NCBI GenBank assembly: GCA_030148485.1
Contig: JASBTJ010000040.1
Location: 1-64,000, forward strand
Reading direction: 5' to 3'
DNA: 64,000 bases
From: Gammaproteobacteria bacterium
GTDB taxonomy: Bacteria > Pseudomonadota > Gammaproteobacteria > Chromatiales > Chromatiaceae
The position numbers were made by a program, and so were the translations under genes. Positions 4,886 through 45,889 of the stretch are shown one piece after another. Positions within the stretch are counted from its first letter, which is position 1; each line of letters begins with the position of its first letter. Below the pieces are notes generated by a model. That model was not told the DNA's origin. It saw nothing but the letters and a program-made list of their open reading frames with translations, and made no database searches.

Positions 4886-5539
4886 TCAGTCCTGGACGAT
4901 GCGCTGACAGATGTTCTGCTCCACGGCGATCACCGCGGCTTCGACCCGTGAATGCACGTCCAGCTTGCGCAGGATCGCTTTGACGTGCAGCTTCACGGTG
5001 CCGTCTGAGATCCCCAGTTCCTTGGCGATGACCTTGTTGCTCTGGCCCGCTGCCAAGTGGCAGAGGATCTCCCGCTCTCGCGGCGTCAGATCGGCGATGG
5101 TCTTGGGCACCGCCTCCGCCGGCTCGCCCTTGACCGCACGCGCCAGCACGGCGGTCAACTCCGGCGCCACCACGGTCTCGCCCTCGACGATGCGCTGCAG
5201 TGCCTCGATCAATTCGTCCGGCTCCATGTCCTTGAGCAGATAACCCTGTGCACCGGACTGCAACGAGTTGATCACATCGCTTTCGTCCCGGCTGGTGGTG
5301 AGCATGCAAATGGGCATGGTTTGACCACGCTGGCGCAATTCACGCAGCACCTCGATGCCAGTCATCTGCGGCATGCGCATATCCAGCAGCACCACATCCG
5401 GCTGGCGTTGCTGTACCTCGGCCATGCCGTCGTTGCAGTCGCCATGGGCGGCGATCACCTTGATGTCCCGGCGCTCCAGCAGTTCGGTCAGACCGATGCG
5501 GAACAAGGCGTGGTCGTCGATCAGCAATATGTTCATCAC
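4886..5539 (-). CDS. NarL/FixJ-family response regulator
   Basis: This 217-residue protein has an N-terminal receiver (LLIDDHALFR acidic pair, VVLLDMRMPQMTG phosphoacceptor near residue 55) and a C-terminal LuxR-type helix-turn-helix (LTPREREILCHLAAGQSNKVIAKELGISDGTVKLHVKAILRKL in several conserved steps from about 150). Its start overlaps the end of the upstream histidine kinase by four bases (ATGA type), so the two are translationally coupled and form a cognate pair. Targets cannot be read from the sequence; the neighbouring rhodanese and EAL regulator are candidates. Confidence 0.93.
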   Translation of the reverse strand: MMNILLIDDHALFRIGLTELLERRDIKVIAAHGDCNDGMAEVQQRQPDVVLLDMRMPQMTGIEVLRELRQRGQTMPICMLTTSRDESDVINSLQSGAQGYLLKDMEPDELIEALQRIVEGETVVAPELTAVLARAVKGEPAEAVPKTIADLTPREREILCHLAAGQSNKVIAKELGISDGTVKLHVKAILRKLDVHSRVEAAVIAVEQNICQRIVQD

Positions 5540-7173
5540 ACGATCCAGCGTTTTTCCATATCCCGTGGCCGCGCCACCGGTTTATAGGTCAGTTCCACGC
5601 GCGTCCCCTCGCCCGGTTCGCTTTCAATACGCAGTTCGCCGCCCAGGCGACGCGCCCGCTCGTCCATGATGGACAGACCGATGTGCTCGCCCGGTTGGCC
5701 CTTGCGGGCGGACTGCTCAAAGCCGACGCCATCGTCCTCCACCAACAACACATAGGTGCCCGGTGTGCGACAGGAGAGCAACACGCGCACGGTCTGCGCC
5801 TGGGCATGCTTACGGATATTCGCCAACGACTCCTGCACGATGCGCAGGATCTGCATTTCTTCCGCCGCGTCCAGATTGACCTGACGACAATCCCGCTGGA
5901 AAAAGCTGTGGATACCGGTTTCCTCGCCGAAGCGTTGCACCAGCTTCTCCAGGCCGCTGACCAGGCCGCGTTGATCCACCGGCGCGCGAAAACTGTTGAG
6001 CAGTTCGCGCAGCTCGGTGTGCGCCTCGTCGATACCGTTGCGGATACGGGAAATATCCTCCCGCGCACGGTCGCTGACCTCGGTGCTTACCAGCGAGTCG
6101 CTCAACATACGGACCTGGAAGCGCAGGCTGGCCAGGGTCTGGGCCAACGAGTCGTGCAACTCGTGGGCCAGGGCGTTGCGTTCCTCGACGATCGACAGCC
6201 GCCGCGCCTCGGTGTCCGACTGCTGCTTGGCGACGGCCATGCCCAGATGTGAACCAATGGTCTCCAGCAGTTCCATGATGTCCTCGCGCCCGGAGATACC
6301 GGGCTTGCGCACGAACACGTGGTAAAGGCCCAGCACGTCGTCGTGATACGCCAACGGGACGGACACCAGCTCGATCTCGTCGTCGCCAAACATCTCCCGT
6401 CCGAGCTGCTTGGCGCAATGCTTGGCGTGATTGACACACATGATGTCGCCGGGCGACAAGGCGATGCCGCATAGACAGAGTTGCAGCGGCAACATCTGCT
6501 CTTCACGCATTACGCTGTTGTCCAGCCCGATGGAGCCGACCAGGCGCATCTTGCCGTCCGGCATCACCAGCCGCACGCTGGCGGCCATGCCGTTGACAAT
6601 CTCCTTAAGCACCCGCATGAAGCGGATCAGCAGTTCGTCCAGATCCTGCGCCTGGTTCACGCTGGCGGCGACGTCATAGAGGATCTTCAACGACGCGGTC
6701 TTCTGCGCCAACCGCGTGGTGTGGCGTGCGACCCGGCTGTCCATGTCTTCGTACAGGTCGGACAATTCCTCGTTCAGGCTGTCCACATCCCGCACCAGAT
6801 CGGTCAGCACGCCGGTCTCCGCCAAACTCAACGTGGCCCCCGGGTCGCCCTGACACACCCGACCCACCGAGGCCTCCAGCGCCACCAGCGGACGCAACAG
6901 CTGACGACGCAGACGCAACGCGCCAATGCCGAACGCCACCATGGCCACCAGGATCGACACAACCACCACCCGCCCGGGAATCGCTGCGCTGGACGCGGCA
7001 TCCTGTAGCAGCGCCGCCAGCAAGGCCACCACCAGGCTGGATACCAGTACGGCGAGGGGAACGACCAATCGGGCGTCCACCAACAGGCGCAGAACACCGT
7101 CCCCCTGAGCCGGGCGGGTCGACGAGGCGCGAGATGTTACAGCGGCGTTGTCAGCGGGAGCGACCATGGACAC
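5536..7173 (-). CDS. NarX-like sensor histidine kinase with cysteine-rich GAF region
   Basis: This 545-residue protein has two membrane segments close together near the N-terminus (about 35-55 and 65-85) with only a short loop between them, then a HAMP-like linker, a GAF-type region (about 160-320), HisKA_3 dimerisation motif with HELHDSLAQ near residue 345 and a HATPase end (GVGFEQ, IGLSIMDERA). The large periplasmic nitrate-binding domain of NarX is absent. The GAF region carries LCLCGIAL and CVNHAKHC, four cysteines that might bind a metal cluster or report redox state. It is coupled to the response regulator downstream. Confidence 0.88.
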   Translation of the reverse strand: MSMVAPADNAAVTSRASSTRPAQGDGVLRLLVDARLVVPLAVLVSSLVVALLAALLQDAASSAAIPGRVVVVSILVAMVAFGIGALRLRRQLLRPLVALEASVGRVCQGDPGATLSLAETGVLTDLVRDVDSLNEELSDLYEDMDSRVARHTTRLAQKTASLKILYDVAASVNQAQDLDELLIRFMRVLKEIVNGMAASVRLVMPDGKMRLVGSIGLDNSVMREEQMLPLQLCLCGIALSPGDIMCVNHAKHCAKQLGREMFGDDEIELVSVPLAYHDDVLGLYHVFVRKPGISGREDIMELLETIGSHLGMAVAKQQSDTEARRLSIVEERNALAHELHDSLAQTLASLRFQVRMLSDSLVSTEVSDRAREDISRIRNGIDEAHTELRELLNSFRAPVDQRGLVSGLEKLVQRFGEETGIHSFFQRDCRQVNLDAAEEMQILRIVQESLANIRKHAQAQTVRVLLSCRTPGTYVLLVEDDGVGFEQSARKGQPGEHIGLSIMDERARRLGGELRIESEPGEGTRVELTYKPVARPRDMEKRWIV

Positions 7174-35282: not shown

Positions 35283-35615
35283 TTACACGCAGCCGGTCGG
35301 CTTCGGCAGGCCAGCGTAACGGCACGCTTGCTTACCCGGACCGTAGGGGAACAGACCGTACAGGTACTTGCTGTTGCCCTTGTCCTTACCCAGCTTCTTG
35401 GCCACGGCCTTGGTCAGCACGCGGACGGCCGGGGCGATCTGGTACTCTTCGTAGTACTCGCGCAGGAACTTGATGATGTCCCAGTGCTCGTCGGTCAGTT
35501 CCAGCTCGTCTTCCTTAGCCATCACTTCAGCAACGCCGGGCTCCCAGTCGTTGATGTTGGCCAGGTAGCCTTCTTCGTCGACCTCAAAGGTCTTGCCATT
35601 CACTTCGATAGCCAT
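35283..35615 (-). CDS. dsrC: DsrC, sulfur-carrier substrate protein
   Basis: This 110-residue protein has the DsrC fold (MAIEVNGKTFEVDEEGYL, WDIIKFLREYYEEYQIAPAVRVL) and the flexible C-terminal arm with both functional cysteines, ACRYAGLPKPTGCV, ten residues apart. These carry the trisulfide or persulfide that DsrAB oxidises. Compare the paralogue at 42321-42665, which lacks both. A ribosome site AGGAG precedes the ATG. Confidence 0.98.
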   Translation of the reverse strand: MAIEVNGKTFEVDEEGYLANINDWEPGVAEVMAKEDELELTDEHWDIIKFLREYYEEYQIAPAVRVLTKAVAKKLGKDKGNSKYLYGLFPYGPGKQACRYAGLPKPTGCV

Positions 35616-35654
35616 CAGGTTATCTCCTCAACAGGTAATTTGACTTGCCGGGGC

Positions 35655-37898: not shown

Positions 37899-37944
37899 TG
37901 TATATCTCCAGAATGCGGATAAATTCGCGTAGCTGTTCCCTAGC

Positions 37945-37977
37945 GGGCGGGATGTCGTACTGTGACACCCCGCCCGG
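37945..37977 (-). other. Strong hairpin between dsrA and dsrB
   Basis: Arms of 13 bp with one mismatch, CGGGCGGGATGTC (37945-37957) and GACACCCCGCCCG (37965-37977), loop of 7. No T-run on the transcribed strand. Such a stem could set RNase processing or translation of dsrB relative to dsrA. Confidence 0.55.
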
Positions 37978-38012
37978 TCGAACGGGAAAACTGTTGAAAG
38001 GTTGTCGGGCGC

Positions 38013-39263
38013 TTAGGAGGCTTCAGCCTGACGCTCGAACCACTTGACGGCTTCGTCGTCCCAACCGTCCATGCGGACGTAGGAGCACTCACGCGGGTGG
38101 CTGACCATGTTGGGGTCAACGTCGACGTCGATGCCTTCCAGGAAGTTCACCAGGCCGATACGCTCGATCATCTCACCGCAGCGCTCGTGCTCCAGGGCGT
38201 TCTCGGCCCAGAAGTCGATGATTTCTTCCGCCAGTTCGACCAGGGACTCGTAGTCTTCCTCGGTGTCCAGCTTCTTGAAGGGAACGACCACGGTGCCCAT
38301 CAGGTCACCGATCTTCAGGGTACGCTTACCACCGATCAGGATGGTCACGCCCTTGTCGTCGCCCGGGTGCAGCGCCTTCGGCATGACGTTCAGGCAGTGC
38401 ATGCAGCGCACGCAGTCCTGGTTGTTCACGGCCAGGGTGTCGTCGTCGTTCAGGGACAGTGCATTGGTCGGGCAACGGGTGATCACGTTGTCGATGATGT
38501 ACTGGCGACCCTTCTTGGCGATGAAGGCCTTGACCTCTTCCTGGTCGACCTTCATGTCGTCGCGCCAGGTACCCAGCACGGCGAAGTCAGCACGCTCGAT
38601 AGCGTTCTGGCAGTCGTTCGGGCAACCGGAGACCTTGAACTTGAACTTGTAGGGCAGAGCCGGACGGTGCACGTCGTCAGTGAAGTTGTTCACCAGCAGA
38701 CGGTGGATCTTCTGCTCGTTGGCGCAGGACATCTCGCAGCGGGCAGCACCGACGCAGGACATGGCGGTACGCACGCAGGGGCCAGCGCCGCCGAGGTCCC
38801 AACCGTACTCGTTGATCTCGTCGAAGAAGTGCTGGGTACGCTTGGTGTCGGTACCGATGAACATGATGTTGCCGGTCTGACCGTGGAAGGTCACCAGGCC
38901 GGAACCCCACTTCTCCCAGGAATCAGCCAGCTGACGCAGCATGGCGGTGGAGTAGTGGTTACCCGCGGGCGGCTGAACGCGCAGGGTGTGGAATTCTTTG
39001 GACTCGGGGAAGGCGTGGCCAACCTCGGAGAAACGGGGGATGATGCCGCCGCCGTAACCGAAGACGGAAACGGTACCGCCCTTCCAGTAACCCTTACGGG
39101 TCTCGTAGGAGTGCTCAAGCTGGCCCAGCAGGGAGGCGGTCACCTCGTTGATGCGCTGGTCCGGATGCTCGTCACGCAGACGCTTAATGCCGGAAATGAA
39201 GCTCGGCCACGGACCGGTTTCCAGCTGGTCAAGCATCGGAGTTGGGTACTTATCGATTGCCAT
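38013..39263 (-). CDS. dsrA: DsrA, dissimilatory sulfite reductase alpha subunit
   Basis: This 416-residue subunit has siroheme-Fe-S ligands in CVGAARCEMSC and SGCPNDC and a ferredoxin domain with CVRCMHCLNVMPKAL. It is the first gene of the 15-gene dsr operon, which runs to 25321. AGGAG precedes the ATG by nine bases. Presence of dsrL, dsrEFH and dsrNRS and absence of dsrD indicate the oxidative type. Regulation probably acts in the 399-bp divergent gap. Confidence 0.98.
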   Translation of the reverse strand: MAIDKYPTPMLDQLETGPWPSFISGIKRLRDEHPDQRINEVTASLLGQLEHSYETRKGYWKGGTVSVFGYGGGIIPRFSEVGHAFPESKEFHTLRVQPPAGNHYSTAMLRQLADSWEKWGSGLVTFHGQTGNIMFIGTDTKRTQHFFDEINEYGWDLGGAGPCVRTAMSCVGAARCEMSCANEQKIHRLLVNNFTDDVHRPALPYKFKFKVSGCPNDCQNAIERADFAVLGTWRDDMKVDQEEVKAFIAKKGRQYIIDNVITRCPTNALSLNDDDTLAVNNQDCVRCMHCLNVMPKALHPGDDKGVTILIGGKRTLKIGDLMGTVVVPFKKLDTEEDYESLVELAEEIIDFWAENALEHERCGEMIERIGLVNFLEGIDVDVDPNMVSHPRECSYVRMDGWDDEAVKWFERQAEAS

Positions 39264-39662
39264 GTCGCTTGTTCTCCTGACTGAATCGAGTTTTGCGTGG
39301 TGCCCCGCCGACGGCGACTACCGCCAACGGTTCTATCTATATAGAGAAGCGGCCTCACGCAGCTATTTGGGCGGGCCAACGACTGGGCGATCTCTTCATT
39401 GAGGACCTGACCCAGACTCCCTATCAACGGCGGCTAATATTAGTCGAGCTGCAACCGTCCCGGTACTGCACCAAAGGGGGATAGGGGTAGCCCCCATCTA
39501 TCCCATTTGGGATAGACCCCGGGTGGCACCGCACCCAGGGCCACTAAAACCTTGAGTCACAGGGCTTTTTCAACGGCTTCCGAATAAATTAGAATTTCGG
39601 GCTATTCGGAACAAATCCCCGGAACCGGCGCGGATACTAGTCCAACCGACCCAGACCGTCAA
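39264..39662. promoter_or_regulatory. Divergent control region dsrA / TauD-like operon
   Basis: This 399-bp gap has no gene but several symmetric elements. TCTATCCC (39497-39504) and GGGATAGA (39509-39516) form an 8-bp inverted repeat, with a further GGGATAG copy near 39478. CTAATATTAG (39434-39443) is a perfect palindrome and CTATATAG lies near 39335. TTCCGAATA/TATTCGGAA lies at 39578-39611. No consensus promoter towards dsrA stands out, which suggests an activator. Confidence 0.6.
39567..39611 (+). promoter_or_regulatory. Candidate promoter and operator of the TauD-like operon
   Basis: TTTTCA (39567-39572), 17 bp, TAGAAT (39590-39595). A perfect inverted repeat TTCCGAATA (39578-39586) and TATTCGGAA (39603-39611) brackets the -10 box, with one arm in the spacer and one near the start of transcription, a layout typical of a repressor site. 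Confidence 0.5.
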
Positions 39663-40583
39663 ATGACTGAAACATTAGACACCGGCACTATAGCGGCCGC
39701 ATCCCCGTTCGATTTAGCAGCCCCCGCGGCCTACGCCGCGTGGCGTGACGCGAAACTGTCCATGGCACCGCGCGGTCTTGATGACCTGCGGGTGGGCATA
39801 CGCGACCCCGCACGCTTGTCCGAGGCGGAAAAGACCGCGCTCGATCACCATCTGGGACGTGCGAACATGGCGCTGTTCCGATTCGCGCAGCCGCCGGAGG
39901 ATGTGGAACACGCGCTGCTCGAGCTCGGCGCACAATTCGGGCTGGACCGCTTGGATCGCAACCTGTGTGCACACGATACCGGCATTACCGCCATCACCGT
40001 GCGGGAAACCGGAACCGACAAGGCCTACATCCCGTACACCACGCGCCCACTGAGCTGGCATACGGACGGCTATTACAACGCCCCCGAACGAACCATCCGC
40101 GCTTGGCTGCTCTACTGCGATGCCGATGCCGCCGACGGCGGTGAAAACGAGGTCATGGACCATGAGCTCGCCTACATCCATCTGCGCGATCACAACCCCG
40201 AGTTCGTCCGGGCGCTGATGGCCGCCGACGCCTTCACCATCCCGGCAAACGACGAAGGCGGCGAACAGATCCGTCCCGACCAGACCGGCCCGGTGTTTTC
40301 CGTCGATCCCTCGACCGGCGCCCTCCACATGCGCTACTCCGCGCGCAGCCGTAACGTCATCTGGAAGGACGACGCCCTGACCCGGGACGCGGCAGGCGTG
40401 CTGCGCGACTTGTTTTCATCGCCGGACGCCCCCATATTCCGTCACCGCCTTGCGCCGGGGGAAGGCGTTCTGAGCAATAACGTACTGCACCGCCGCGAAG
40501 GCTTTCGCGACGACCCCACCACCGGGCACAAACGCCTGGTGTACCGCGCCCGCTACTACGACAGGGTCCGCCCCGTCGTCTGA
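39663..40583 (+). CDS. TauD/TfdA-type Fe(II)/2-oxoglutarate dioxygenase
   Basis: This 306-residue protein has an iron triad visible as SWHTDGYYN (H and D) near residue 128 and NNVLHRREGF (distal H) near 275, with KRLVYRARY supplying the 2-oxoglutarate arginine. The class usually hydroxylates or cleaves small sulfonates or amino acids. Here the gene opens a five-gene run ending in a DsrC paralogue and facing dsrA, so a sulfur-related substrate is plausible but unproven. A regulatory inverted repeat lies upstream. Confidence 0.88.
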   Translation: MTETLDTGTIAAASPFDLAAPAAYAAWRDAKLSMAPRGLDDLRVGIRDPARLSEAEKTALDHHLGRANMALFRFAQPPEDVEHALLELGAQFGLDRLDRNLCAHDTGITAITVRETGTDKAYIPYTTRPLSWHTDGYYNAPERTIRAWLLYCDADAADGGENEVMDHELAYIHLRDHNPEFVRALMAADAFTIPANDEGGEQIRPDQTGPVFSVDPSTGALHMRYSARSRNVIWKDDALTRDAAGVLRDLFSSPDAPIFRHRLAPGEGVLSNNVLHRREGFRDDPTTGHKRLVYRARYYDRVRPVV

Positions 40584-40603
40584 TTGCCAAAGGATCCACA
40601 ACC

Positions 40604-40792
40604 ATGCTTTACCTCAGCCAGATCATGATCGCCAACCAGGATCTCGACGATTTCGAGGAGCTGTGCGAGCTGATGAAGGAATACGCCAAGCGCGGCGAAC
40701 GCTTCCTGCGCTTCGACGTCAAGCCACCCTACCCCAACACCCCGGAAAACTGGGAAGACCGTCTGGAAGCCGCATTCAGCGCCCGGATCTGA
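40604..40792 (+). CDS. Small conserved acidic protein, unknown
   Basis: This 62-residue protein (MLYLSQIMIANQDLDDFEELCELMKEYAKRGERFLRFDVKPPYP) has a helical N-terminal two thirds and a Pro-rich turn. A ribosome site AAAGGA lies ahead of the ATG. It sits 20 bp after the dioxygenase and 10 bp before the next gene, so it belongs to the operon. No family recognised; the size fits a subunit or adaptor for a neighbour. Confidence 0.75.
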   Translation: MLYLSQIMIANQDLDDFEELCELMKEYAKRGERFLRFDVKPPYPNTPENWEDRLEAAFSARI

Positions 40793-40802
40793 GGACAGCA
40801 CA

Positions 40803-41519
40803 ATGGTAGATTTCTTCGACCCCAACAAGCTCGACGATACCGCCGCCGACTCGGTGCAGAAGCAGTTGGGCGAAAAAGCCCACCTGGAAGGCCTGGTGGT
40901 CGAGCTGAATGAGCAGATCGCCAACCTTCCCGAAGGCACCACCGACCTGCAGCGCGCCGAGTTGCACCTGGAATTGGGCCGCGCGCTGCAGATCCTCGAG
41001 CGCGGCAAGGAAGCCTGGCCGCATGCCCATAGCGCGTTGATGGAGTTCCTCAACAATGAGGCCTGGGAACAGGCTGCCGACGCCTGTGACGTGCTCTACC
41101 AGACCGGTGAGGATCAGGCGCTGCAGGCCCTCGGCCAAGGCATCTGGCTGGGCGTGACCTTCCCCATTGATCCCGAGATCACCGTACACCTGCTCAGCCA
41201 CGTGATCGACGACACCCCGGACGACTCGGACGGCGCCGCCGTAGCCGCGGCTACCGCCTGCTTCCTGGCCGACCTCCGCGCTACGGAAGGACCCGAGCGC
41301 GAGCGCCTGATGTTCTTTGCCCAGCAACTGCTCGGCAAGGTCGCGCGCCGCCACTCCCAGGTGGAGACCCAGGAACAGTTCGACTTCTGGATCGAGCGCC
41401 TGGAACTGAACGACCCGGACAAATTCCTGGTACGTCTGCGCAACGTGGTGGACGTACTGGTCCAGACCGACTGGTGGTTCGACCGCGAGGCCGTACAGGC
41501 CAGCATCCCCGCCAACTGA
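40803..41519 (+). CDS. Helical (TPR-like) protein of the TauD-Cas6-DsrC-like operon
   Basis: This 238-residue, nearly all-helical acidic protein has repeat-like pairs such as AELHLELGRALQILERGKEAWPHAHSALMEFLNNEAWEQAADACDVLYQTGEDQAL, which resemble TPR helices. No catalytic motif and no cysteine cluster. It probably acts as a scaffold or docking protein. It is 10 bp after the small gene and 25 bp before the Cas6-like gene. I do not recognise the family. Confidence 0.78.
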   Translation: MVDFFDPNKLDDTAADSVQKQLGEKAHLEGLVVELNEQIANLPEGTTDLQRAELHLELGRALQILERGKEAWPHAHSALMEFLNNEAWEQAADACDVLYQTGEDQALQALGQGIWLGVTFPIDPEITVHLLSHVIDDTPDDSDGAAVAAATACFLADLRATEGPERERLMFFAQQLLGKVARRHSQVETQEQFDFWIERLELNDPDKFLVRLRNVVDVLVQTDWWFDREAVQASIPAN

Positions 41520-41544
41520 GCTGCCGCCGCAGCAGGAGCGCACC

Positions 41545-42243
41545 ATGTTCTGGCAGGAAGACGACAACAAGCAGGAGTACAAGGTCCCGGACGACGTCCA
41601 GGACGTGCTCTTCGACCTGAAGTGCCGGGCGCTGCCGGTGCACCATATGTATGCACTCTCCCAGGCCCTGGTGGCACAACTGCCCTGGCTACAGGACGAA
41701 CCGGCGGCCGCCATCCACGAGATCCACCTCGCGGGCTCGCAAAACGGCTGGGAGCGCCCGGATCCCGAGCAAGGCCAGAAACTGATCCCGTCCCGCCGCA
41801 CCAAGATGACCCTGCGCCTGCCCAAGCATCGCATCGAGCAGGCCCAGGCAGAGCTGGACGGCGTCACTCTGGACATCGACGGCCACCCGCTATGCATCGG
41901 CAAGGCCAAGACCAAGTTGCTGGCCAAACAGAGCACCCTGTTCGCGCGCAACCTGGTGCTGGAAGCCGGCGAGGCCGAGGACGAGATGAAATTCCTCAAG
42001 CGCATGGTGGATGCGCTTGACCAACGCAACATCCGCGTAAAAAAGGCGATGCCCGGCAAGACCGTGGATATTCAGACGCCGGACGGCCCCCTGGCCACCC
42101 GCAGTCTGATGGTCGCCGACCTGACCACCGATGACGCCATTGCGCTGCAACAGCAGCCTTTGGGCGAGCACCGACTGCTCGGTTGCGGCATCTTCCTGCC
42201 CCACAAAGGCATAGATGCGGTCAAAAAAGCCGGGGATGACTAA
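41545..42243 (+). CDS. Stand-alone Cas6/Cmx6-like RAMP protein
   Basis: This 232-residue protein follows the Cmx6 (subtype MYXAN Cas6) pattern: an N-terminal strand then CRALPVHHMYALSQALVAQLPWL (the histidine of the Cas6 active site falls here, about 34-35), LRLPKHRIEQAQAELDG with IDGHPLCIG, QSTLFARNLVL, FLKRMVDALDQRNI, and an end DAIALQQQPLGEHRLLGCGIFLPHKG matching the glycine-rich RNA-binding loop and GCGxF ending. Cas6 cuts CRISPR precursor RNA, but no array or other cas gene lies in this window. Assignment is by motif memory. Whether RNA cleavage is kept is unknown. Confidence 0.82.
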   Translation: MFWQEDDNKQEYKVPDDVQDVLFDLKCRALPVHHMYALSQALVAQLPWLQDEPAAAIHEIHLAGSQNGWERPDPEQGQKLIPSRRTKMTLRLPKHRIEQAQAELDGVTLDIDGHPLCIGKAKTKLLAKQSTLFARNLVLEAGEAEDEMKFLKRMVDALDQRNIRVKKAMPGKTVDIQTPDGPLATRSLMVADLTTDDAIALQQQPLGEHRLLGCGIFLPHKGIDAVKKAGDD

Positions 42244-42265
42244 TTTGTGAACCCTATATTAGAAT
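42236..42265 (+). promoter_or_regulatory. Candidate internal promoter before the DsrC paralogue
   Basis: ATGACT (42236-42241), 18 bp, TAGAAT (42260-42265). The -35 box overlaps the stop codon of the Cas6-like gene. The same TTAGAAT core occurs in the TauD operon promoter. Weak -35, so low confidence. Confidence 0.3.
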
Positions 42266-42320
42266 CCGGTGAATTTTTTGAACCCCTATCGCTAACGTGA
42301 CAGAAATAGGAGCGCACGAC

Positions 42321-42665
42321 ATGGCACTCGAAGTAAACGGTCAGACCATCGAGACCGACAGCAACGGCAACCTGGTGAACCCCAACGACTGGAACGAAGA
42401 CGTGGCCCGCGCCCTGGCTGCGGCCGACGATGCATTCACCGGCGAGCTGACCCAAGAGCATTGGGACGTGATCAAGTACCTGCGCGACAAGTACTTCGAC
42501 GAGAACGAACAGCCCATGGAGCGCGTCATCAACAAGGAGATGGGCAAGATCTGGGGCAAGAAACTGTCCAGCAAGGATCTGTACAAGCTGTTCCCGCTGG
42601 CACCGTCCAAGCAGGGCAACCGCATCGCCGGCCTGCCTTACGTGGCACGCAAGGGCGGTTATTGA
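42321..42665 (+). CDS. DsrC paralogue lacking both functional cysteines
   Basis: This 114-residue protein starts at ATG 42321, behind AGGAG. MALEVNGQTIETDSNGNLVNPNDWNEDVARALAA and EHWDVIKYLRDKYFDENEQPMERVINKEMGK align with DsrC, but the arm reads KQGNRIAGLPYVARKGGY where DsrC has KQACRYAGLPKPTGCV. Both cysteines are gone, so it cannot carry sulfur in the DsrC manner; a regulatory or competitor role is more likely. It closes the operon beginning at 39663, and a repeat plus terminator follows. Confidence 0.92.
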   Translation: MALEVNGQTIETDSNGNLVNPNDWNEDVARALAAADDAFTGELTQEHWDVIKYLRDKYFDENEQPMERVINKEMGKIWGKKLSSKDLYKLFPLAPSKQGNRIAGLPYVARKGGY

Positions 42666-42790: not shown

Positions 42791-42820
42791 AAAACGGCCA
42801 CGCTTGCGTGGCCGTTTTTA
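42791..42820 (+). terminator. Terminator of the TauD-Cas6-DsrC-like operon
   Basis: Arms AAAACGGCCACGC (42791-42803) and GCGTGGCCGTTTT (42806-42818) with TT between, followed by further T. It lies 126 bp after the stop of the DsrC paralogue, beyond the repeat. Confidence 0.8.
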
Positions 42821-44227: not shown

Positions 44228-45142
44228 ATGATCAGCCCTTGGTTTTCGATTGCCATACCGTTTGCCGCAGTGACCCTGGTTGCCGCTGTCGGCGCCGTCA
44301 GATCGAGTCGGGAACGCCGTAAGCTGCGCGCGTTGCATCATGACGGTGTCACCGCCATCCGGGCATTGCGACAGCTTCTTGAAGACATACAAACCCACCG
44401 CGGCCTGGTCAGCATGCAGCGCAACGGGGCGGACGGCATGGAGCGCCGCATCCACGAGCGCCAAGCGGGCATCGAACGCACCCTACGCGAGGTCGACAGC
44501 CACACACCGGCGGCCATTCTTCCGACCGGTCGCTGGCAACGGACGAAACAGTACTGGGCGCGGATTGCGCAGGACCTGCCGGATTTGTCCGCCGCCGAAA
44601 GCTTTGATCGTCACGGCGCCTTGATTCGCCAGCTGCTGTTCCTTATCCAGGATGTCGCGGACCAAGCCCGCCTCACCGAACTGCCGTCCGATGCAACATC
44701 GACAAACCAGGACAGCATCCTCACCCTGGCCACGACACTGCCGGAAATGGCCGAGGGCATCGGACAGGCGCGCGCCATCGGCGCCGGCGTCGCGGCGGCG
44801 GCGCACTGCTCGAGCGTCGCCCGTATCAGACTGCGTTTTTTACGCCATCAGGTCGCGGATGCCATCGACCAGCTGAGTACCGGGGACGCCCAGTCCCAAC
44901 AGCACGTCGCGGACGCGGTGCGCAAACTGGTCGCCGAGATCGATGCCAAGCTGTTGGCACCGACCCGGCCGGAGATCTCCGCCGAGCACTACTTCCAGAT
45001 CGCTAGCGACGCGCTAAAGGCCATCTACGTTGAATTCGATAGCCGCGGCGCGGCATTGATGCAGCGACTGACGGCGCGCGCACCAAAGGAACGATCCGTC
45101 CCCACTCAGACCTCGGCCCAACAACGCAGCAGGTTCGCGTAA
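44228..45142 (+). CDS. Membrane-anchored NIT-like helical sensor protein
   Basis: This 304-residue protein has one N-terminal membrane helix (WFSIAIPFAAVTLVAAVGAV) followed by long helices. DIQTHRGLVSMQRNG near residue 55 resembles the opening of the nitrate/nitrite-sensing NIT domain (normally LQxERG), and the helical bundle length (about 230 residues) also fits. No output domain is present. Immediate coupling to the chemoreceptor gene suggests a two-protein receptor. It overlaps the convergent oxygenase gene by 37 bp at the 3' end. Confidence 0.65.
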   Translation: MISPWFSIAIPFAAVTLVAAVGAVRSSRERRKLRALHHDGVTAIRALRQLLEDIQTHRGLVSMQRNGADGMERRIHERQAGIERTLREVDSHTPAAILPTGRWQRTKQYWARIAQDLPDLSAAESFDRHGALIRQLLFLIQDVADQARLTELPSDATSTNQDSILTLATTLPEMAEGIGQARAIGAGVAAAAHCSSVARIRLRFLRHQVADAIDQLSTGDAQSQQHVADAVRKLVAEIDAKLLAPTRPEISAEHYFQIASDALKAIYVEFDSRGAALMQRLTARAPKERSVPTQTSAQQRSRFA

Positions 45143-45780
45143 CTTCGATCGATCCGCTGGGTATGGGACTCGCCTGGCGCGGTACGCAGCAGGTGCTCAC
45201 GGGCCAGATCCAGATCGTGCAATAGCTCGCGCTGCGCCGGGTCGCGCACCAGGCTCTGAATCCAGGTCACTGCCACGAGGCGTTCACCGCGTGTCACCTC
45301 GGCGACGTGATGCAGACTGGACGACGGATAGATCACCGCATCGCCCGCATTGAGCTTGACCTGCTTGTCGCCGAAACTGGTCCGGATCACCAGCTCGCCG
45401 CCGTCGTAGCTGTCCGGTGCGCTCAGGAACACCGTCATCGACACGTCGGAGCGGAAGCGCGGACCACTGCCTCCCATCACCGGGTCGTCCACATGGTCGC
45501 CGTAGCGCATGCCCGCCTGGTATCGGGCAAAGATGAAGTCCGCCACCTTGTTCGGCAACGCCGCGCTCTTGAAGGTGCTGTCGTGTCCCAAGGCGGTCAT
45601 CAGGATCCGATACAACAACTGCAGCTTGTCCGGATCCACCGCCAGTTCTTCGTTCCGCTTGACCTGGGCGGCGGCCATGCCGGCGGTGAGCTTGCCATCG
45701 ACAAAGCGTGCACCCTCCAGCACCGAGAGGATCTTCTGCACGAAGGCGTCATTCAACAGTTGCGGGATTTCGATCAGCAT
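45106..45780 (-). CDS. PKHD-type Fe(II)/2-oxoglutarate hydroxylase
   Basis: This 224-residue protein starts at ATG 45780. Iron ligands appear as YGDHVDDPVMGG (H and D) near residue 97 and SSSLHHVAEV near 155, with RGERLVAVTWIQS carrying the 2-oxoglutarate arginine. It matches the PiuC/YbiX family of PKHD hydroxylases found beside iron-uptake genes in other bacteria; no TonB receptor is adjacent here. The ribosome site is weak. Confidence 0.92.
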   Translation of the reverse strand: MLIEIPQLLNDAFVQKILSVLEGARFVDGKLTAGMAAAQVKRNEELAVDPDKLQLLYRILMTALGHDSTFKSAALPNKVADFIFARYQAGMRYGDHVDDPVMGGSGPRFRSDVSMTVFLSAPDSYDGGELVIRTSFGDKQVKLNAGDAVIYPSSSLHHVAEVTRGERLVAVTWIQSLVRDPAQRELLHDLDLAREHLLRTAPGESHTQRIDRSYANLLRCWAEV

Positions 45781-45889
45781 GGAATTAAGATGATGCAAGC
45801 AGGGGTTATTGCAACTCGGCGGGCATGCCGGCTTTGCTAAGATAGCGCCCTCTTTGGAACCGCCAAGGCGCAACGTTCATACCCGAGCC

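Follow-up and report, generated by a model that had tools for sequence, protein, structure and literature searches.

A Cas6-family protein encoded opposite dsrA suggests recruitment of a CRISPR enzyme to sulfur metabolism in Gammaproteobacteria

The gene cluster opposite dsrA and its tie to dsr

Purple sulfur bacteria, vent and clam symbionts and other abundant marine groups oxidise sulfur by means of the reverse Dsr pathway, the control of which is poorly known. This work concerns a cluster of five genes that faces dsrA, the first gene of the dsr operon, in a stretch of 64,000 nucleotides (the window) at the start of contig JASBTJ010000040.1 (assembly GCA_030148485.1) of a gammaproteobacterium of the family Chromatiaceae. 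A preliminary description of the sequence had placed these genes on the plus strand, and they are confirmed there, with gaps of 10–77 base pairs (bp; 20, 10, 25 and 53–77 bp in order). The recurrence of the genes in relatives shows that this is no chance arrangement. For the last gene, the ATG at 42321 is a more plausible start than the GTG at 42297. The cluster and the relevant parts of the divergent operon are the following:

39663–40583, plus strand: TauD/TfdA-type Fe(II)/2-oxoglutarate dioxygenase, 306 amino acids (PF02668, E-value 2e-22)
40604–40792, plus strand: conserved protein of 62 amino acids, motif DvkPp..DTP..WEd.lEaaF (103 loci)
40803–41519, plus strand: all-helical TPR-like solenoid protein of 238 amino acids (66 loci)
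41545–42243, plus strand: Cas6-like RAMP protein, 232 amino acids (PF09559, E-value 7e-57)
42321–42665, plus strand: cysteine-less DsrC paralogue with the C-terminus ...RKGGY (PF04358, E-value 4e-32)
38013–39263, minus strand: dsrA, gene 1 of the divergent dsr operon (TIGR02064, 656.9 bits)
35301–35618, minus strand: canonical dsrC region within the dsr operon

A sigma-70-like promoter precedes the cluster (39567–39595, TTTTCA-17-TAGAAT), in keeping with the preliminary description, which had proposed a promoter bearing a palindrome at 39567–39611. The palindrome itself (TTCCGAATA/TATTCGGAA, 39578–39611) is real in the window and is not kept in relatives, and was set aside as a regulatory element. 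A second sigma-70-like promoter lies ahead of the DsrC-like gene (42236–42265), which may therefore also be transcribed alone. The terminator proposed near 42791 can be read from the sequence as a hairpin followed by a T-run (about 42793–42820), and was not listed by the consensus scan.

Conservation of the cluster was followed first with the Cas6-like protein, which was scanned against 84,980 species genomes and returned 41 loci. In most of those loci that extend far enough, dsrA diverges from the TauD-like, 62-amino-acid, (238-amino-acid), Cas6-like and DsrC-like genes, in this order. Stretches from further genomes were then added and 122 loci were mapped with purpose-built profiles; all six genes (dsrA and the five) are found in 37 of them, all except the gene for the 238-amino-acid protein in 28, and all except the TauD-like gene in 17. 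Synteny is shared by about 100 loci, which bears out the earlier proposal of a system linked to sulfur oxidation whose genes would stay together in other sulfur oxidisers. No gene fusions among the five families were found.

Co-occurrence was assessed in an even sample of 369 genomes across the Gammaproteobacteria, with dsrA defined as a TIGR02064 match at E<1e-30. PF09559 and dsrA occur together in 111 of these genomes, alone in 7 and 8, respectively, and neither occurs in 243 (Fisher p 7e-75, a value that overstates independence because the genomes share ancestry). The association spans dozens of GTDB families, and in mixed families both genes are either present or absent (f33: G065 and G209 versus G316; f108: G627 versus G140). 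Several exceptions are assembly gaps: in one genome the contig stops just upstream of dsrA (G239), in another dsrA begins 658 bases from the contig end (G143), both of which nonetheless carry a DsrC of the KGGY kind described below, and in a third the contig stops just past the TauD-like gene (G160). In a phylum-wide sample, the Cas6-like gene adjoins dsrA in all three dsrA-bearing gammaproteobacterial genomes (the window's own and two others). Genomes of only 1.0–1.1 megabases (Mb) retain both the Cas6-like gene and dsrA (loci L138, L140, L148 and L149), and four genomes keep cluster genes although these are unlinked (G142, G357, G258 and G130). These sequence comparisons give strong support to the existence of the module and to its link with dsr.

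The encoded proteins

The Cas6-like protein scores 192.9 bits against PF09559 (cut-off 26.7) and 93.4 bits against TIGR02807 (Cas6/Cmx6), narrowly under the cut-off of 98.85. As modelled by AlphaFold (mean predicted local distance difference test score, pLDDT, 88.5), it is a full Cas6 fold. The model matches the Cas6 of a type I-B CRISPR-associated transposon (CAST; 8fcj_B) with a Z-score of 24.2 and a root-mean-square deviation of 2.0 over 199 residues, and many other Cas6 proteins with lower but clear Z-scores; a profile search again returned the CAST Cas6 8fcj (E-value 1.6e-21). Among 121 relatives, His34 is kept in 120, His58, whose counterpart in the aligned CAST Cas6 is also a histidine, in 115, and the glycines of a glycine-rich C-terminal loop (G213/G215) in 117. 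Nearly invariant residues that include NGW 67–69 (segment NGWERPD), R85 and R91 mark a distinct subfamily. Fold and conserved residues together make it probable that the protein acts on RNA, by binding or cutting it, and the Cas6 fold renders the earlier description of the cluster as RNA-linked a reasonable one.

The genomic setting of this protein is not that of a CRISPR system. Cas1 was not detected in 23 of 49 carriers of the Cas6-like gene, among them all five tested carriers of 1.0–1.1 Mb (G072, G174, G287, G319 and G382), so that the protein is not tied to CRISPR; it is present in the other 26, which include the window's own genome, where it lies elsewhere. No cas genes occur at the Cas6-like loci, the neighbours being dsr genes and those for the TauD-like, small, TPR-like and DsrC proteins, and there are no array-like repeats near the locus in the window. 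The synteny and the missing Cas1 and repeats speak strongly against a CRISPR remnant.

The DsrC-like protein (111 bits against PF04358, cut-off 24.9) is about 50% identical over its full length to the canonical DsrC of the same operon. It contains no cysteine at all, and thus lacks the two cysteines of the C-terminal arm of canonical DsrC (...C...GC[VI]). In the mapped loci, DsrC-family proteins fall into two kinds with almost none intermediate, 97 ending in KGGY (94 in RKGGY) and 93 in GC(V/I); the genes that follow the Cas6-like gene encode the KGGY kind. Within that kind, 85 of the 97 proteins have no cysteine and 12 have one. When the cluster is without a KGGY DsrC, one is often found elsewhere in the genome (G265, G047, G130, G209, G142, G258 and G357). 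The KGGY tail is invariant and free, which suggests a binding role. This cysteine-less group presumably corresponds to the proteins named RspA. The Solemya velum symbiont has additional DsrC homologues that lack the two cysteines, and the authors who described them considered them incapable of acting as DsrC (PMC4287430). Elsewhere, extra DsrC genes, one of which is near dsr by locus number, are without an established role, and binding of DsrC itself to DNA upstream of dsr has been reported (PMC5944118). As a separate observation, one genome (G000) holds at least seven DsrC/TusE-family genes (contigs C53, C51, C76, C55, with two, and C13).

In the TauD-like protein the active-site set is complete, with the HxD...H iron ligands and the 2-oxoglutarate-binding arginine (R291); H133, D135, H276 and the arginines 291, 295 and 297 are invariant in 82 relatives. 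Its nearest solved relative is TmpA (6npb, E-value 3e-7), and it scores 46 bits against the TmpA family, for which the cut-off is 400. Neither the 62-amino-acid protein nor the 238-amino-acid protein matches a Pfam or NCBIfam family. The former has S5, P41, P47, W50, E55 and F58 invariant. The gene for the latter is present in about half of the loci, and its AlphaFold model (pLDDT 89, 11 helices) matches TPR-type folds only, with a best Z-score of 13.4, in a range common for helical repeats. Two further hydroxylase-like genes were seen: a frame resembling a PKHD-type 2-oxoglutarate-Fe(II) hydroxylase lies about 3 kilobases (kb) past the cluster in the window (45106–45873, minus strand; identified by eye), and at locus L044 a PKHD-type hydroxylase gene follows the Cas6-like gene at a distance of about 0.4 kb, on the opposite strand.

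Four dsr-bearing genomes outside the Gammaproteobacteria (L217–L220) carry the TauD-like and 62-amino-acid genes opposite dsrA, without a Cas6-like gene or a KGGY DsrC, so that this pair may predate the recruitment of the Cas6-like protein. In three of them (L218–L220) the pair is followed by the sirohaem synthase gene cysG, and a DUF6967 protein, confirmed by Pfam in L217 and L220, is in L220 encoded between the pair and cysG. A small DUF6967-like frame was also noticed by eye in four gammaproteobacterial loci (L160, L163, L167 and L168), where it replaces the TauD-like and 62-amino-acid genes between dsrA and the Cas6-like gene. Ten non-gammaproteobacterial genomes contain two divergent dsrA matches each and are without the Cas6-like gene (G425, G428, G453, G465, G479, G489, G497, G500, G536 and G563).

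The shared regulatory region and a candidate two-component system

The region between dsrA and the cluster contains a conserved arrangement of sites, and the window also encodes a candidate two-component system that may act on them:

39499–39514 (conserved palindrome 39497–39516), no strand: operator-like site A, TATCCC-N4-GGGATA, outside the promoter proposed earlier
39466–39481, no strand: operator-like site B, of degenerate 6-N4-6 form, its centre 33 bp closer to dsrA than that of site A
39437–39442, minus strand: probable -10 box of dsrA, TAATAT, in the conserved AAGTCTA / CTAATATTAG block
5536–7173, minus strand: GAF-HisKA_3 histidine kinase (Pfam), probable partner of the response regulator
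4886–5539, minus strand: NarL/LuxR-type response regulator (Pfam), candidate binder of sites A and B

Site A is the sole exact copy in the genome, and it recurs with at most 3 mismatches in 14 positions in 84 of 103 loci, compared with about 1.6 expected from shuffled sequences. A logo anchored on this operator and built from 75 non-redundant loci has a fixed register, in which site B follows 33 bp nearer to dsrA and the -10-like block another 35 bp on. Judged from the sequence, this is the layout of a two-site activator at the dsrA promoter. In two genomes in which the Cas6-like gene lies away from dsrA (G142 and G258), the operator is still found 146 bp upstream of dsrA, and it therefore belongs to dsr. 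An imperfect TATCCC-type palindrome was also seen directly behind the DsrC/TusE-family gene on contig C76 of G000.

Sites for NarL-family regulators are palindromic, and the NarL-type response regulator of the window is the best candidate to bind sites A and B, which it probably does. An orthologue of it (E<1e-60) accompanies dsrA in 109 of the 369 genomes, is found apart from it in 20 (one without the other) and is absent together with it in 240; it is thus present in 109 of the 119 dsrA genomes, usually about 15 kb from dsrA at the end of the dsr operon. At locus L044, orthologues of the regulator and the kinase stand directly beside the TauD-like, small and Cas6-like genes, behind dsrP- and dsrN-like genes. 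The preliminary description had taken the five genes for a regulatory or RNA-linked system whose DsrC look-alike would sense or compete with DsrC; the probable transcription regulator is none of the five, being this two-component pair, encoded elsewhere in the window (4886–7173).

With its 6-bp stem and 4-nucleotide loop, TATCCC-N4-GGGATA resembles a Cas6 substrate, which raised the possibility that the Cas6-like protein cleaves it as a hairpin in RNA. This reading is disfavoured because the inferred -10 boxes of the two operons both lie downstream of the palindrome, because a second site accompanies it in the fixed 33-bp register and because it remains beside dsrA in genomes where the Cas6-like gene has relocated.

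A proposed accessory module, its rivals and its parallels

Support by comparison comes from the synteny, the co-occurrence with dsr, the independence from CRISPR, the Cas6 fold, the KGGY subfamily of DsrC and the tandem operator. Taken together, these suggest that a CRISPR enzyme was recruited to sulfur metabolism. The explanation that we tentatively prefer, while giving it slightly less than an even chance, is that the cluster is an accessory module devoted to the oxidative (reverse) Dsr pathway of Gammaproteobacteria, in which the Cas6-family protein binds or cuts RNA and thereby tunes dsr. The module diverges from dsrA and shares its regulatory region, where, in this model, the NarL-type two-component system would bind the operator and, in response to sulfur supply, switch dsr and perhaps the module as well. 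The Cas6-like protein would bind or cleave one particular RNA, with dsr mRNA or a transcript produced alongside it as the most likely target, adding a post-transcriptional layer to dsr control. The cysteine-less DsrC would dock at the sites of DsrC on DsrAB, DsrEFH or DsrK and, being unable to carry sulfur, would report or limit their occupancy. The TPR-like protein may serve as a scaffold, and the dioxygenase and its 62-amino-acid partner would constitute the older layer, probably modifying some residue or small molecule on which Dsr depends. The full version of this model, with a domesticated Cas6-family endoribonuclease as an RNA-level regulator of sulfur oxidation and a DsrC dead in sulfur transfer whose invariant -RKGGY end reports the state of Dsr, which would make a metabolic regulator out of a CRISPR part and a decoy carrier, is held still more cautiously, and that the RNA bound is derived from dsr is a weaker conjecture again.

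Several observations weigh against this explanation. The Cas6-like gene is found in none of the 47 non-gammaproteobacterial dsrA genomes of the phylum-wide sample, which places the module outside the core chemistry, since these genomes do without it. Catalysis is perhaps not universal, as His58 is lost in 6 of the 121 relatives. A KGGY DsrC is not obligatory, being displaced in some genomes and not found in others (e.g., G094 and G337), and its docking on Dsr proteins, proposed from homology, is tentative. Among the candidates examined, no RNA target of the Cas6-like protein was found. The strong hairpin in the dsrA-dsrB gap (window 37899–38012) was rejected as such, being absent in several carriers and present in some genomes without the Cas6-like gene; stems of at least 9 pairs occur at this position in 47 of 102 gammaproteobacterial loci, with unrelated sequences (shuffled mean 5), and perhaps protect the mRNA. 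An Rfam scan of the window gave no match, and the gap between the Cas6-like and DsrC-like genes holds no recurring hairpin, its repeated elements being limited to a ribosome site and a promoter-like TTAGAAT.

The serious rival, which we consider unlikely on balance, is that the genes build or protect active DsrAB, e.g., through its sirohaem or sirohaem amide cofactor; the dioxygenase would act on a precursor, the cysteine-less DsrC would hold a place on DsrAB during assembly, and the Cas6-like fold would act as a binder of protein or RNA. The divergence from dsrA in the Gammaproteobacteria and in four genomes outside them, the three occurrences of cysG behind the TauD-like and small genes, and the retention of the genes in reduced genomes of symbiont size all agree with such a maturation role, which nevertheless gives no reason for a Cas6 fold with a kept histidine and glycine-rich loop, and non-gammaproteobacterial DsrAB matures without Cas6. 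Quite improbable is a function in thiolation of tRNA or other RNA, in which the DsrC/TusE-like protein and a Cas6-like RNA binder would work with the TusBCD-like DsrEFH, paced by sulfur supply. An RNA-binding fold is indeed encoded beside a DsrC fold, and TusE, which is homologous to DsrC, takes part in making the 2-thiouridine of tRNA (mentioned in PMC3368242); however, without a GC(V/I) tail, and in 85 of 97 proteins without any cysteine, the DsrC-like protein cannot carry a persulfide as TusE does. Less probable still is passive hitch-hiking with dsr, by ancestry or transfer and functionally unconnected, for although kinship inflates the co-occurrence p-value, the association holds across dozens of families, is consistent in the mixed ones and survives both unlinking and genome reduction to 1 Mb. 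Finally, that the Cas6-like protein is left over from a CRISPR system or serves one encoded elsewhere in the genome, as its family names, its fold match and the carriers with Cas1 might imply, is strongly disfavoured, the gene following dsr rather than Cas1 and persisting in Cas1-less genomes of about 1 Mb, with neither cas genes nor repeats at the locus.

If the accessory-module explanation is true, a CRISPR ribonuclease family has taken on a second role, in core energy metabolism, and PF09559 ('Cas6') in Gammaproteobacteria marks sulfur oxidation rather than CRISPR, so that annotations and CRISPR surveys that count this family would be misled. The tandem operator and the two-component candidate make the switching of dsr directly testable. 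The cluster lies beside dsr in nearly all sulfur-oxidising gammaproteobacteria sampled and is apparently undescribed; no description of it was found in the literature searched, which left most subscription journals outside and is thus weak evidence of novelty.

Compared with known systems, each recognisable member of the cluster resembles an established family and departs from it. The Cas6-like protein shares with Cas6 endoribonucleases (8fcj/8fcu) the whole-length fold, the glycine-rich loop and the aligned His58, and differs in having no cas operon or array at its locus, in the frequent absence of Cas1, in an occurrence that follows dsr, and in the NGWERPD segment, R85/R91 and the TIGR02807 score slightly below the cut-off. 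The TauD-like protein has the HxD...H and arginine motif and the profile match of TauD/TfdA dioxygenases such as TmpA and gamma-butyrobetaine hydroxylase, with a score far under the cut-offs of the named enzymes. The DsrC-like protein is homologous over its full length to the DsrC/TusE family (PF04358, TIGR03342), from which it differs in the loss of the functional cysteines and in a C-terminal arm that is now RKGGY. A further parallel is offered by the dsr-encoded DsrR of Allochromatium vinosum, which is linked to the regulation of sulfur oxidation. Like the DsrC-like protein it is a degenerate paralogue, in this case resembling IscA but not binding an Fe-S cluster, and a title cited in PMC11406059 gives it a regulatory role. 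The sequences of DsrR and of DsrS, also dsr-encoded, are unrelated to those of the cluster, and neither protein is known to have a ribonuclease fold.

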